Shown here: piece after piece, positions 17,794-22,100 of the stretch
Position numbering within the stretch: position 1 is the first letter of the stretch
Layout of the letters: each line of letters opens with the position of its first letter
NCBI GenBank assembly: GCA_002842515.1
Contig: PHDC01000003.1
Location: 1 to 64,000, forward strand
Direction of reading: 5' to 3'
From: Bacteroidetes bacterium HGW-Bacteroidetes-5
GTDB lineage: Bacteria; Bacteroidota; Bacteroidia; Bacteroidales; UBA932
DNA: 64,000 bases
The notes under the pieces: generated by a model
Seen by the model: only the letters and a program-made list of their open reading frames with translations
Databases searched by the model: none
What the model was told of the DNA's origin: nothing
Position numbers and translations under genes: made by a program

Positions 17794-18885
17794 TCATCTC
17801 ACCTTGAAGGTGATGAGGATAGCGTTTGAGTTAAGTGTGGCAGCGGGGAGTTGGGGAATGGAGTCAATTGGGGGATCAATTAGGAAAATCAAGTGGTTGT
17901 CTGAGGTAAGTGATTTTGCAGGACCAAAGGTCAGGTATTTGGAGTTGTTCCGGATTGCGTTTGTTATTTGTGTCTTGCCACTGGCTTTATTGTGGAGCAG
18001 ATGGTAGAATTTTTGATAGTTGGCATCTGTTACATAGATGTAAATGTAATTCTCATTTTCCAAATACCTGCCTATATTGTAAGGATTTACAGTTGTAAGA
18101 AACTCCATAAATGCATCAGAACTCTTCTCTAAAATAGTTTTATCGTAAGCTCTATCTTTAAAATCTATAGTAGTAACTTGCCTTGGGCCACTCTTTGTTA
18201 TCTCATAAACATCCCCGGTGAACCATGTTTTAAAAAAAACATTTCCGTTTGAGACCTGAATACTTTCGTCACGCATCGGAGTACGGAAAGCGTTATTCTT
18301 TTCAATTGGCAGATATCTCTCCTTAACGCCCCCTGCTTTATCTATTGTATATAACTGAGCATTACCAATTTTTACGTTTTCATCGGCAACCTGCCCCTTG
18401 CAAAACAGATATGATCCATCGTCGAATTTTGTAAAAGAGTACGGATACCCTTGAATCTTAAATGTTGAGATAAATACACCATCATTGTTGTAGATGTAAA
18501 GCTGTTGTGCCATAAGGGAGAGGAATTCTATATTGCCGTTAGCCGGATCGATGCAAAAATCTTCGACTGCAGAGTACTCGGTAGGTCCTCGACCTCGTGT
18601 CCCGATAGAGTTCAGAAACTTACCCGAATGATCAAACCTGTGAACAACCATTGTACTATTGTCAAAAAAATAGTAAGAGCCGTCACTCTCAACCATTTTA
18701 GAGTCTGAACTCACAATCGGTGAACCGATAGAATCCAACGGAGTAAAGCCTACTAGTTCCATCGACTCATTCGAGAAGATGTCACAATTCTCCTCCTCCG
18801 AAAAATTTATGGTTGTGACTTTTGAATCCTTATGTGCATTACAGGATAACATAAAAAGGCAAGCAGATAGAATGATGGTTTTCAT
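17794..18885 (-). CDS. six-bladed beta-propeller lipoprotein (DUF4934-like)
   Basis: A 363-residue predicted lipoprotein. MKTIILSACLFMLSC gives a lipobox ending at Cys16. The body resembles the Bacteroidetes six-bladed propeller family (DUF4934), with motifs such as HRFDHSGKFLNSIGTRGRGPTEY and blade-like repeats of aromatic and aspartate residues. The frame extends upstream to 18948, but the ATG at 18885 gives a proper lipoprotein signal. No ligand or partner is known. It is isolated and convergent with the MalY-type gene. Distant paralogs occur at 47.1-48.4 kb and, broken, at 50.1-50.7 kb. A small dyad (TAGTGA/TCACTA, 18895-18917) precedes it. Confidence 0.8.
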   Translation of the reverse strand: MKTIILSACLFMLSCNAHKDSKVTTINFSEEENCDIFSNESMELVGFTPLDSIGSPIVSSDSKMVESDGSYYFFDNSTMVVHRFDHSGKFLNSIGTRGRGPTEYSAVEDFCIDPANGNIEFLSLMAQQLYIYNNDGVFISTFKIQGYPYSFTKFDDGSYLFCKGQVADENVKIGNAQLYTIDKAGGVKERYLPIEKNNAFRTPMRDESIQVSNGNVFFKTWFTGDVYEITKSGPRQVTTIDFKDRAYDKTILEKSSDAFMEFLTTVNPYNIGRYLENENYIYIYVTDANYQKFYHLLHNKASGKTQITNAIRNNSKYLTFGPAKSLTSDNHLIFLIDPPIDSIPQLPAATLNSNAILITFKVR

Positions 18886-19056
18886 AGGATTTAATAGTGA
18901 GTGATAATAATTCACTAAATTACACATAATTGCGTAAAAATTGAACAATTGACTCTTAGAATTCCAATTTTTTCAATAGTGTTTCAAGATTCTTACGCCC
19001 AATAAAGTTTAACCAATTCTTCATCGCGATTATAAAATTTCATCACTTTCTTTTTT

Positions 19057-19079: not shown

Positions 19080-19137
19080 TGCAATGATAGTTTTTTATGA
19101 TTTTTCATGAATTTCTGCGTGGGATTGCAAAAAAAAA

Positions 19138-19167
19138 TTTGTTTTTAAAATTTTTCGCATAGATTTG
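19138..19167 (+). promoter_or_regulatory. threonine operon promoter
   Basis: TTTG (19138-19141), an 18-bp spacer and TAGATTTG (19160-19167) match the Bacteroidetes -33/-7 consensus. The expected transcription start is around 19172, giving a leader of roughly 20 bases before the Thr/Ile leader peptide at 19192. Confidence 0.75.
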
Positions 19168-19191
19168 TGATTATAAAACGTAAAATTTTTT

Positions 19192-19275
19192 ATGATTCTA
19201 AATTCATCAACTTCATCGGCCATCGTTATTACAACGATTACGATTACAACTACAACAACACTGTTGTATGGATGA
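19192..19275 (+). CDS. thrL: threonine/isoleucine leader peptide
   Basis: A 27-codon frame (ATG 19192, TGA 19273-19275) rich in regulatory codons: nine threonines and five isoleucines. The dense run at 19231-19260 reads TTITITTTTT. Such peptides couple ribosome speed at Thr/Ile codons to transcription termination. The stop codon lies inside the strand-2 segment of the attenuator (19271-19282), exactly where a terminating ribosome should block the anti-terminator. It is too short for ordinary gene finding, but the composition, the promoter upstream and the terminator downstream together make it convincing. Confidence 0.92.
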   Translation: MILNSSTSSAIVITTITITTTTTLLYG

Positions 19276-19340
19276 AGTTGGCATTGAATAAATTCAATAA
19301 ATAATATAGCCGGCTTCATTTAAATGGGGCCGGTTTTTTT
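19208..19340 (+). promoter_or_regulatory. threonine operon attenuator with mutually exclusive hairpins
   Basis: Four segments can be read directly. Segment 1, CAACTTCATC (19208-19217), is perfectly complementary to GATGAAGTTG in segment 2 (19271-19280). Segment 2, ATGAAGTTGGC (19272-19282), pairs with segment 3, GCCGGCTTCAT (19309-19319), in eleven positions including two G-U pairs. Segment 3 pairs with segment 4 (to 19333) to form the terminator. A ribosome that stalls at the Thr run (19231-19260) has covered segment 1 and leaves 2 free to pair with 3, giving read-through. A ribosome that reaches the stop blocks 2, and the 3:4 terminator forms. With no translation, 1:2 forms and transcription terminates. 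Confidence 0.88.
19310..19340 (+). terminator. rho-independent terminator of the threonine attenuator
   Basis: CCGGCTTCA and TGGGGCCGG form a nine-pair stem (two G-U pairs) around a six-base loop, followed directly by seven T residues (19334-19340). It sits 35 bases after the leader-peptide stop and before the first structural gene position. Confidence 0.92.
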
Positions 19341-19366
19341 ATGTATAACTTAATAACATTTAAACT

Positions 19367-19568
19367 ATGAAGGTTTTAAAATTCGGAGGGTCGTCCGTTG
19401 GCAATAAAGAGATCGTGCAATAAAATTGCTTATATTAGCGAGAGAGGCCTTTACAAAGCTGAGCCGAAGAGAATTGTGGTAGATTGTCACGGTACAACTC
19501 CATTTAATAATTTGAGATCAAGTAATAACATATTGTCTTTCAGAAATAAGTATTGTAATGAGAACTAA
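19367..19568 (+). pseudogene. thrA: remnant of thrA (aspartokinase-homoserine dehydrogenase)
   Basis: ATG 19367 opens MKVLKFGGSSVGN, the unmistakable N-terminus of aspartokinase (KFGG-[ST]-SVG), but the frame stops at 19421 after 18 codons. Further on, another frame ending at TAA 19566 contains PFNNLRSSNNILSF (19500-19541). This matches the C-terminal homoserine dehydrogenase pattern P-F-x2-L-x2-S-[DN]-N-I-[IL]-x-F seen in bifunctional ThrA proteins. About 800 codons that should lie between are missing. The position, just after the Thr attenuator and overlapping the thrB start, is where thrA belongs. The N-terminal match is firm, the C-terminal one good. Confidence 0.85.
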
Positions 19569-20514
19569 AAACAAAGAGATAAGGGTTTTTGCCCCGGCCA
19601 CCGTCTCCAATATTGCTTGTGGATTTGACGTTATGGGGTTTGCTATTGATATGCCGGGAGATGAATTGGTTTTGAGGGTGAGTGAAAAACCGGGGGTGCG
19701 GATTGTGAAGATTACCGGTGACAATGGCCGGCTAACCTACAATCCGGAGTTTAACACCGGGGGTAAACCTATACTCTCTATGATGAGGGCTTTCGGGATA
19801 GATTGCGGTGTCGAGATCGAGATTCACAAGCAGATGCCCCTTGGAAGTGGGCTTGGTTCGAGTGCTGCAAGTGCAGTGGCTGCAGCTTTTGCAATGAATA
19901 AGCTTTTTGAACTGAATCTCTCCGAAAGTGAACTGCTCCCTTTTGCTATTGAGGGTGAGATGATTGCCAGTGGCTCCCTTCACGCCGATAATGTTGCCCC
20001 GGCTCTCTATGGGGGCTTTGTTCTCATCCGCAGTTACCACCCCATTGACATAATAAAACTTGACGTTCCCAAAGAGCTCTTCTGCTCGGTGATCCACCCC
20101 CACATTGAGATCTCTACCAAGGAGGCCAGAGAGTTGCTTCCGGAGCAGATTCCGCTCTCTACAGCTATAAGACAGTGGGGAAACACCGCAGCACTTGTGG
20201 CCGGGCTCCTTAAGAGTGACTTCGCTCTTATTGGCCGGTCGCTGGAGGATTTTGTTGCAGAGCCTGTTCGGTCCCGTTTGATTCCGGGGTTTGCGCAGAT
20301 GAAGCAGGCGGCTCTGGATGCCGGTGCTATCGGTTGCAGCATAAGTGGCTCGGGTCCCTCGCTCTTCGCCCTCTCCGATTCGCGGGATAGGGCAGATAAA
20401 ATTGCCAAATCTATGCAGATGGCTCTCAATACCTTTAAACTTGGGTCCGATCTATATGTTTCTGCCGTAAATACCCAGGGACCGCGGATTTTGAACTGCC
20501 AGACTTTTGCGTAA
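19558..20514 (+). CDS. thrB: homoserine kinase
   Basis: A GHMP-family kinase of 318 residues that phosphorylates homoserine with ATP. FAPATVSNIACGFDVMGFA is the ThrB N-terminus, and PLGSGLGSSAASAVAAA (94-110) is the ATP-binding GHMP motif. GCSISGSGPSLFAL near the C-terminus is the third GHMP motif. The ATG at 19558 lies within the last codons of the thrA remnant. The gene is downstream of the Thr/Ile attenuator and 101 bases before thrC. Homoserine must now come from enzymes encoded elsewhere because thrA is broken here. Confidence 0.96.
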   Translation: MRTKNKEIRVFAPATVSNIACGFDVMGFAIDMPGDELVLRVSEKPGVRIVKITGDNGRLTYNPEFNTGGKPILSMMRAFGIDCGVEIEIHKQMPLGSGLGSSAASAVAAAFAMNKLFELNLSESELLPFAIEGEMIASGSLHADNVAPALYGGFVLIRSYHPIDIIKLDVPKELFCSVIHPHIEISTKEARELLPEQIPLSTAIRQWGNTAALVAGLLKSDFALIGRSLEDFVAEPVRSRLIPGFAQMKQAALDAGAIGCSISGSGPSLFALSDSRDRADKIAKSMQMALNTFKLGSDLYVSAVNTQGPRILNCQTFA

Positions 20515-20615: not shown

Positions 20616-22100
20616 ATGATTCTCTTTAGCACAAATAACAAAAACTACAAAGTAAGTTTCCGGGAGGCTATCCTGCAGGGGCTTGCTCCCGATGGCGGGC
20701 TATTTATGCCACAATCGCTGCCCCACTTCTCTCCGGCATTCATCAACAACTTAAGGGGTTTAAGTTTTAGTGAACTCTCTTTTCGGCTTTCCAAAGAGAT
20801 CCTTGCAGATGAGATTCGTTCCGGGGAGATTCCGGAGAGCGATTTGGAGAGAATTGTTTACAAAGCTCTCAACTTTGATGCTCCGCTCATAGATATGGGT
20901 AACAACACTTATGTCCTTGAGCTTTTCCACGGCCCTACCCTTGCCTTCAAGGATTTCGGAGCGCGATTTCTGGCCGGGATGATCTCCCACTTTGGAGTTG
21001 AGAAAACTGTGGTGCTCGTTGCCACCTCCGGCGATACGGGAAGTGCTGTTGCAAATGGCTTTCACAATGTACCGGGCGTAGATGTCGTGATTCTCTACCC
21101 ATCCGGGAAAGTGAGCAAAATTCAGGAACAACAACTCACAACCCTCGGAGGTAATGTCACCGCCCTTGAGGTCAACGGCACCTTTGATGACTGCCAGCGA
21201 ATGGTAAAAGAGGCCTTTGCAGATACCGCCCTCCGCAAACGACTCAACCTCTCATCTGCAAACTCCATCAACATCGCCCGCCTCCTCCCCCAATCATTCT
21301 ACTACTTCTACGCAGCCGCACAACTTGCAACCCGTGATTCCCAATTGTCCGGCGGGCCATCTCACCTCTCCGGCAGTGCATCTCACCTTTCCGGCAGTGC
21401 ATCTCACCTTTCCGGCGGGCCATCTAACCCGGCCGGTGAACGGCCTCTTGTATTCTCGGTGCCAAGCGGCAACTTTGGAAACCTCACCGCCGGACTCTTT
21501 GCAATGCAGATGGGACTTCCGGTCCACCGCTTTGTTGCCGCCGTAAACTCCAACGATATCTTTCCCAAATATCTGCAAACAGGCAAGTTCGAACCAAAAC
21601 CATCCATACCCACCCTCTCAAACGCAATGGATGTAGGCAACCCAAGCAACTTCGCCCGTATCCAAGCCCTGTTTGGCAATGCGGACGCCGCCGGGAAAGT
21701 GATCTTCAGCCACTCCTACTCCGACTCTCAAACCCTTGAAGCAATCCGCGAAATCTACACCCAACACAACTACCTGATGGACCCCCACGGCGCCGTCGGC
21801 TACCTCGCCCTCCAGGAGTATCTAGCTTGCCGGCAAAGCAATTTGCACCAGCACAGCGATTTGAACCTGCCAGCCGACTCACGCAACATCAACACTATAA
21901 CCGACTTAGGAGACATTGCTAACAATTTCAATTCCATTATATTGGAGACTGCCCACCCCGCAAAATTTGCCGAAACGGTTGAGAGCGCAACCGGCGTTAA
22001 AGTCAAAATCCCAGATTCCCTTGCAAGATGCCTCAAGCTAGAGAAGATCAGTAAAAAAATGAATCTTTCGGAGTTTTTGAAGAACTTTGGCAGTGTTTGA
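20616..22100 (+). CDS. thrC: threonine synthase with a repeat-expanded loop
   Basis: A PLP enzyme of 494 residues that converts O-phosphohomoserine to threonine. GPTLAFKDFGARF holds the Schiff-base Lys112, VATSGDTGSAVANGF binds the substrate phosphate, and FSVPSGNFGNLTAG binds PLP phosphate. Residues 242-276, between FYYFYAAAQLA and the last motif, are a 7-residue tandem repeat (SHLSGSA and variants) that I would not expect in the family. A second soft, polar stretch lies around 405-440. Both probably form surface loops and leave the active site intact. It ends the thr operon at a strong bidirectional terminator. The second half is noticeably richer in G+C than most neighbours. Confidence 0.95.
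   Translation: MILFSTNNKNYKVSFREAILQGLAPDGGLFMPQSLPHFSPAFINNLRGLSFSELSFRLSKEILADEIRSGEIPESDLERIVYKALNFDAPLIDMGNNTYVLELFHGPTLAFKDFGARFLAGMISHFGVEKTVVLVATSGDTGSAVANGFHNVPGVDVVILYPSGKVSKIQEQQLTTLGGNVTALEVNGTFDDCQRMVKEAFADTALRKRLNLSSANSINIARLLPQSFYYFYAAAQLATRDSQLSGGPSHLSGSASHLSGSASHLSGGPSNPAGERPLVFSVPSGNFGNLTAGLFAMQMGLPVHRFVAAVNSNDIFPKYLQTGKFEPKPSIPTLSNAMDVGNPSNFARIQALFGNADAAGKVIFSHSYSDSQTLEAIREIYTQHNYLMDPHGAVGYLALQEYLACRQSNLHQHSDLNLPADSRNINTITDLGDIANNFNSIILETAHPAKFAETVESATGVKVKIPDSLARCLKLEKISKKMNLSEFLKNFGSV
21339..21443 (+). repeat. 21-bp in-frame tandem repeat inside thrC
   Basis: Four copies of a 21-bp unit (21339-21359, 21360-21380, 21381-21401, 21402-21422) encode SQLSGGP, SHLSGSA, SHLSGSA and SHLSGGP. 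A fifth, degenerate copy follows to 21443 (SNPAGER). Copies two and three differ by a single base, which points to recent slippage or unequal exchange. The reading frame is kept. Confidence 0.92.

Follow-up and report, generated by a model that had tools for sequence, protein, structure and literature searches.

Does a leader that resembles thrL still act as a switch once the first gene of its operon is broken? This is the question raised by a locus in the 64,000-nucleotide stretch of DNA analysed here as a whole (the window), in which a leader gene rich in Thr and Ile codons and an intrinsic terminator stand before the remains of thrA and the intact genes thrB and thrC. Attenuation of the E. 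coli thr type is established, with a Thr/Ile-rich leader, mutually exclusive pairings, a GC hairpin and a T-run in thrL; the window shares all of these, and differs in that E. coli thrL controls thrABC and the window element thrBC. We regard it as very probable that the element works as thrL does, by ribosome-mediated attenuation of transcription, and that it now controls thrB-thrC. A sequence-only reading of the same DNA had already proposed E. coli-type attenuation, and anatomy, energetics, relatives and conservation speak for it, although the label "translational" that came with it was mistaken: this is attenuation of transcription, controlled by translation of the leader.

Anatomy of the leader, its helices and its promoter

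The leader gene lies on the forward strand, as do all the elements of the switch, at 19192..19275, and encodes MILNSSTSSAIVITTITITTTTTLLYG, that is, 27 codons followed by TGA, with the nine Thr and five Ile that the sequence-only reading had counted and that translation of the open reading frame bears out. Segment 1 (19208..19217) has its partner at 19271-19280, within segment 2 (19271..19282), which is both protector and antiterminator arm and contains the leader stop codon (19273-19275), as had been noted. Segments 2 and 3 are separated by a loop with a small 6-bp hairpin (19283..19298); segment 3 (19308..19319) is the antiterminator or terminator arm, and segment 4 with its T-run (19324..19340) completes an intrinsic terminator of 12 bp.

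Helix 1:2 (19208-19217 with 19271-19280) has 10 Watson-Crick pairs and helix 2:3 (19272-19282 with 19309-19319) has 11 pairs including two G-U, both exactly as drawn by eye in the sequence-only reading. Helix 3:4 had been given there as 19310-19318 with 19325-19333; it is present and seven T follow it, but it is longer, with 12 pairs instead of nine (19308-19319 with 19324-19335, three of them G-U) before the T-run at 19334-19340. Taken in isolation, the helices have energies of -11.8 (1:2), -13.9 (2:3) and -17.4 kcal/mol (3:4), and 2:3 reaches -16.4 kcal/mol when the small loop hairpin is included. This hairpin is probably not essential, since only 19 of the 25 nucleotides of 19283-19307 are identical in G007, another genome of the genus. 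The overall observation of a leader with three mutually exclusive helices is confirmed.

The locus has the features of the thrL kind: a run of Thr codons, a terminator before the first structural gene, genes for the same amino acid downstream, an antiterminator that excludes the terminator and a protector that excludes the antiterminator (with a caveat for helix 1:2 in G003 and 2:3 in G006, see below). In a permissive scan against Rfam, the Thr_leader family RF00506 gave the best match both by bits and by E-value, with 26.7 bits over 19207-19343; since the gathering cut-off of this family is 55, the element is not a member by Rfam's rule, yet it would work like the family. No Rfam family reaches its gathering score within the window, and none of the 28 permissive matches at 19100-19400 is named T-box, so a T-box riboswitch was rejected.

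How often such pairings arise by chance was assessed by searching for a three-helix chain in which each helix has at least 9 bp and the arms are shared. Dinucleotide shuffling of the leader produced this chain 6 times in 3000; among 5108 tiles (154 nt, both strands of the window), 21 had it, one of them the leader itself. Because the chain recurs in this way, the helices on their own are not conclusive, and the remaining weight is carried by the Thr run, the T-run, the position before thr genes and conservation.

Upstream of the leader, at 19138..19167 on the forward strand, stands a candidate promoter of the Bacteroidetes type, with TTTG (-33) and TAGATTTG (-7) at a spacing of 18 nt. The pattern scanned, TTTG-N16-22-TAnnTTTG, has five sites over both strands of the 64 kb window; it also precedes the leaders of G001, G018 and G006, while G003 has the -7 box only, and in G007 both boxes are visible in the alignment with the window. 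The consensus of this promoter type is quoted in a passage of PMC7366714. The nearest gene upstream encodes a DUF5128 beta-propeller protein (17794..18948, reverse strand, true start uncertain) and is divergent, so the terminator cannot serve an upstream gene and was ruled out as the end of one.

Folding order and the proposed mechanism

The minimum free energy fold of 19170-19345 (-48.3 kcal/mol) contains 1:2 together with 3:4, and when 19255-19285 is kept unpaired 3:4 persists (-30.5). Prior to the transcription of segment 4, helix 2:3 has a probability of about 1.0. The competing hairpins 2:3 and 3:4 on which the sequence-only reading depended are thus both found, 3:4 (with 1:2) in the minimum energy fold and 2:3 before segment 4. 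We further placed the ribosome codon by codon and folded only the RNA downstream of it. In this ribosome-position model, an A site anywhere in the Thr run (codons 14-23) gives 2:3 a probability of 0.89-1.00 before segment 4, and an A site on the stop codon gives 0 for 2:3 and 0.95 for 3:4. The full transcript without a ribosome has 1:2 at 0.99 and 3:4 at 0.95.

On these grounds we infer that the element is best read as responding to charged tRNA-Thr. Transcription would start a few bases past the -7 box at 19160-19167. With ample charged tRNA-Thr, the ribosome would reach the stop codon in segment 2 and block 2:3, 3:4 would then form, and RNA polymerase would stop at the T-run. A shortage of threonyl-tRNA would hold the ribosome on the Thr codons at 19231-19260 and leave segment 2 free to pair with segment 3 before segment 4 exists, with read-through into thrBC as the expected outcome. 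In the absence of translation, 1:2 would form first and termination would be the end state.

Two features of the energetics count against a simple version of this scheme. Once segment 4 is present, equilibrium favours 3:4 over 2:3 at most of the stall positions. The exception is a ribosome stalled at codon 18 or 19, depending on the footprint assumed, where 2:3 has the lead (probability 0.83); one codon to either side the two helices are level. Read-through would therefore need 2:3 to form first and persist. Likewise, in free RNA ending between about 19319 and 19330, 2:3 outcompetes 1:2, so that termination without translation would rest on kinetics. According to these models, then, both outcomes hinge on the order of folding.

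Decay of thrA, relatives and persistence of the leader

Behind the leader the sequence opens as thrA (MKVLKFGGSSVG) and stops after 18 codons (MKVLKFGGSSVGNKEIVQ, 19367..19423, forward strand), the first 13 residues being identical to those of G007. It is followed on the same strand, with an approximate start, by a frame-shifted C-terminal remnant of thrA, the end of the homoserine dehydrogenase (19407..19557), with 75% nucleotide identity to G007 over 149 columns and 81% to the thrA of G024 over 78 columns. From this comparison thrA of the window reads as a pseudogene. The first intact gene behind the attenuator is thrB, a homoserine kinase of the GHMP kinase type (19558..20514, forward strand), and thrC, threonine synthase, follows at 20616..22100 on the same strand. 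The "threonine operon" of the sequence-only reading therefore stands as far as thrB and thrC are concerned, and has to be narrowed to thrBC because thrA is broken. Inside thrC, window positions 21348-21429 hold an in-frame 21-bp tandem repeat of 3.9 copies that encodes a Ser/Gly/His-rich insert, a repeat also seen in G007 and, in shorter form, in G024. A megablast search of plasmids returned no match.

With thrA decayed, the switch would now govern only the branch from homoserine to threonine, and aspartokinase and homoserine dehydrogenase would be supplied by a second gene adjoining metX. A single homoserine dehydrogenase domain was matched in the genome of the window (2.82 Mb in 5 contigs, 92.85% complete); it lies away from thrBC, in an 812-residue AK-HSD frame between metX-like and asd-like frames, both named by reading the sequence. 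A further copy of homoserine dehydrogenase may lie in the 7% of the genome that is possibly missing.

Relatives show other stages of this decay. G024 has a thrA frame that is open up to the contig end, beyond which the leader would fall. The leader is present in G007, whose thrA has shrunk to 237 N-terminal residues and fragments of its homoserine dehydrogenase end. By eye, the remnants of the window and G007 skip the same stretch near the C-terminus (with E 0.32, the final piece of the BLAST match is a weak one), so that the two seem to have a second, C-terminal thrA deletion in common, and thrA was probably damaged before they split. G023 has a thrB with 97% identity to that of the window over 207 residues; its leader lacks both ends and is followed at once by thrB, DUF5128, the terminator and thrA having been lost from between. 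At this locus (L062, G023:C83) deletions have removed thrA, the terminator, the promoter side and the 3' half of the leader, so that the Thr run now sits immediately between thrB and a patB-like aminotransferase gene.

Among the 25 genomes of the genus that were searched, 14 have a close thrB (at least 59% identity), and similar leaders precede thrA or a thrA remnant in five genomes other than that of the window, including G001, G018, G003 and G006. A covariance model built from five leaders matches 7 of the 25 genomes at E <1e-7 (the window's own G000, G001, G018, G007, G003, G006 and the remnant in G023), five of these seven having also trained the model. At E up to 0.1 some match, mostly weak, is found in 21 of the 25; of 11 weaker matches that we read, five are Asn or Phe/Tyr leaders and the other six (including G048, 54.9 bits) are terminators behind other sequence, or simple repeat. 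It counts against the attenuator reading that in five of the 14 genomes with a close thrB (G008, G011, G012, G021 and G022) the gene stands behind another gene, with no Thr leader within 520 nt. In two more of the 14 the upstream sequence is unreadable, G020 having N there and G024 ending its contig before.

All three helices are present in G007, G001 and G018; G003 has no clear 1:2 by eye, and in G006 2:3 is only weak. In 1:2, two pairs are changed on both sides in G001 and G018, with the arms matched by eye at a shift of one codon, and one pair each is changed on both sides in 2:3 and in 3:4. Of 500 shuffles, 59 attain the covariation score of 2:3 and, likewise of 500, 39 that of 3:4; for the number of doubly changed pairs the figures are 364 and 392. 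With five sequences from about three lineages, and shuffles reaching these values, covariation lends the structure weak support. The comparison of relatives that the sequence-only reading had suggested thus yielded the Thr leader and the three helices in G007, G001 and G018, but little by way of covariation. Outside the genus, five thrA upstreams from other genera of the family (among L064-L070, minus L065 and L069) gave no Thr leader with a terminator.

Conservation bears directly on the possibility that the element is a relic, a former thrABC attenuator that has had no function since thrA broke. That thrA is broken in both the window and G007 would fit such a relic, and the loss of the promoter side, leader 3' half, terminator and thrA in G023 shows that the switch can be lost. 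However, the leader and the terminator with its T-run are identical to G007 at 114 of 117 sites (81 of 84 in the leader, 33 of 33 at 19308-19340), while the thrA tail is identical at 108 of 142 sites, 138 of them aligned (Fisher p 2e-7, or 3e-6 counting aligned sites only), and the fourfold sites of thrB at 67 of 124 (p 1e-16 against leader and terminator). The fourfold sites of the leader itself are identical at 15 of 17 (p 0.008 against those of thrB). The thrB-thrC gap, identical at 50 of 101 sites with only 70 alignable, was left out of this comparison. On the other hand, conservation extends beyond the leader: 36 of the 39 sites in the first 13 codons of the dead thrA are identical in G007, and so are 87 of the 100 nt that precede the leader and contain the candidate promoter. 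Since leader and terminator are better conserved than the thrA tail and the thrB fourfold sites, the leader seems to have outlived thrA, and selection seems to have kept the switch after the loss of that gene. All three helices are intact, moreover, and the switch was kept although the damage to thrA probably dates back to the ancestor shared with G007. We consider a relic unlikely for these reasons.

Fainter still is the case for a leader that mainly yields a short terminated RNA of about 165 nt with its own role, for example as a trans-acting small RNA: a candidate promoter and a strong terminator do bound a short transcript, but such an RNA would not need a conserved reading frame, a Thr run or mutually exclusive pairing, and no Rfam family is found at gathering score in the window, which leaves this reading very improbable. 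Equally improbable is an action on translation, through coupling or by hiding the next start, instead of on termination. The stop codon of the leader does sit in segment 2, but thrB starts 282 nt past it, the closer start belongs to the dead thrA fragment, and the 12-bp hairpin with its seven T is shaped like an intrinsic terminator. We return, then, to ribosome-mediated transcription attenuation, in which we infer the promoter, the read-through when threonine runs out and the control of thrBC as it now stands.

Threonine and other leaders in the phylum and the genus

Leaders before thrA occur elsewhere in the phylum in two forms. A survey of the order started from 64 thrA places covering at least 689 of 785 residues at E <1e-160, and kept 61 after a contig-edge locus, the second copy of the window's own genome and L173 (start not recognised) were dropped. 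Automatic classes assigned 13 of the 61 upstreams to a Thr-rich leader with a GC hairpin over its last codons and without a T-run, 48 to neither type and none to the terminator type; by eye, L151 is of the terminator type and several more loci of the order show the stop-codon hairpin. Visual reading shows a Thr/Ile leader with a terminator in both L151 and L144, which the automatic terminator class had passed over; L150, classed with the terminators, may be of the hairpin type. In a second survey of 80 loci among the matches listed, four were too short; of the other 76, again among the matches listed, nine have a Thr leader with a terminator, eight a stop-codon hairpin and 59 neither. In 1200 random windows the terminator type turned up three times, and so did the stop-codon-hairpin type. 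None of 20 thr-leader loci of both types reached the gathering score of an Rfam family.

The terminator type is found in Sphingobacteriales (Pedobacter, Mucilaginibacter, Daejeonella, Parapedobacter, Sphingobacterium) and in Empedobacter, where, as in the window, a Thr/Ile leader and an intrinsic terminator precede thrA. A 2:3 helix of 6-9 bp is present in each of nine such loci, a count with no null behind it; the arm sequences are other than those of the window, 1:2 is found in 3 of the 9, and thrA is matched at full length. In some other members of the order and of Cytophagales a Thr-rich leader likewise precedes thrA, but a hairpin straddles its end and there is no T-run terminator. These stop-codon hairpins, with the sequence CCCCTTGGGG or CGGGGTRACCCG, lie 60-220 nt before thrA in L160, L161, L169, L184, L195, L200, L201, L206, L071-L074 and others, and the leaders may act via Rho or downstream RNA structure. 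The window leader was ruled out as one of them, its leader ending in segment 2 and a T-run being present.

The earlier remark that few such systems have been worked out in the phylum may thus hold for experiments, but several Sphingobacteriales have Thr leaders of the terminator type. Vitreschak et al. (2004) reportedly predicted attenuators of amino-acid operons, thr among them, with Bacteroidetes/Chlorobi among the groups covered, and attenuators of amino-acid operons are also said to have been predicted by Lopatovskaya et al. (2010). Our literature search, to which most subscription journals were out of reach, found no paper on a Bacteroidetes thr attenuator. The Bacteroid-trp motif (RF01692), listed in a table of PMC2864571, is like the window element a proposed cis-regulatory RNA of Bacteroidetes, and differs in the amino acid, which by its name is trp.

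In the genome of the window itself, leader-plus-terminator units also precede asnA, pheA and hisG and carry the matching codon runs, which counts for the attenuator reading of the thr leader. Across the genus, 23 asnA loci were collected, of which two were too short to read, and 17 of the 21 readable ones have an Asn-rich leader and a terminator upstream; no Asn leader was found upstream of asnA in G005, G008, G011 and G022. Before asnA of the window's genome (L246, G000:C1:1264254-1264550) two Asn-rich leaders stand in tandem (G000:C1:1264476-1264550 and 1264288-1264368), each with a terminator behind it. G023 and G012 likewise have two terminated Asn leaders each, and G007 has a second Asn-rich frame with a putative terminator. 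In other families of the order, 30 asnA upstreams were fetched and none of the 22 readable ones has an Asn leader.

The gene for prephenate dehydratase (pheA) has a Phe/Tyr-rich leader in 12 of 14 readable genus loci (15 found). A His run lies upstream of hisG in 18 of 20 fetched loci, from 22 genomes with a match, and 17 of these 18 have a T-run behind a GC stretch. In the window's genome the Phe/Tyr-rich and His-rich leaders with their terminators are at G000:C1:410168-410289 (L270) and 1499872-1500015 (L309), respectively. trpE was found in one of the 25 genomes, with WWW in its leader. The 2:3 arm of the Asn and Phe leaders usually lies within the last leader codons. The asn, phe, his and trp figures are raw counts without a null, and those for phe, his and trp were made inside the genus only. 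We know of no precedent for asparagine-codon attenuators of asnA, and the literature search, again with most subscription journals out of reach, returned nothing relevant on an asnA attenuator. Whether ribosome-mediated attenuation is the general control of amino-acid operons in this genus, largely built within the lineage and including the asnA type, with the thr switch retargeted from thrABC to thrBC, we judge to be evenly balanced.

The design of the attenuator is itself known; less expected are the retention of the switch after the loss of thrA and the asnA leaders. The locus offers a clean and testable thr attenuator of the E. coli type in a phylum for which the literature searched gave no experimental paper, and the switch is predicted to keep threonine synthesis off until threonine becomes scarce. 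Furthermore, the relatives form a natural series, from the open thrA of G024 through the truncated gene of G007 and the scraps with a leader in the window to G023, where thrA and half of the leader are gone, and this series asks whether a leader can be maintained for the genes that remain after the first one of an operon has died. Taken together, the further leaders of the genus suggest attenuation, asparagine attenuation included, as a general strategy there.
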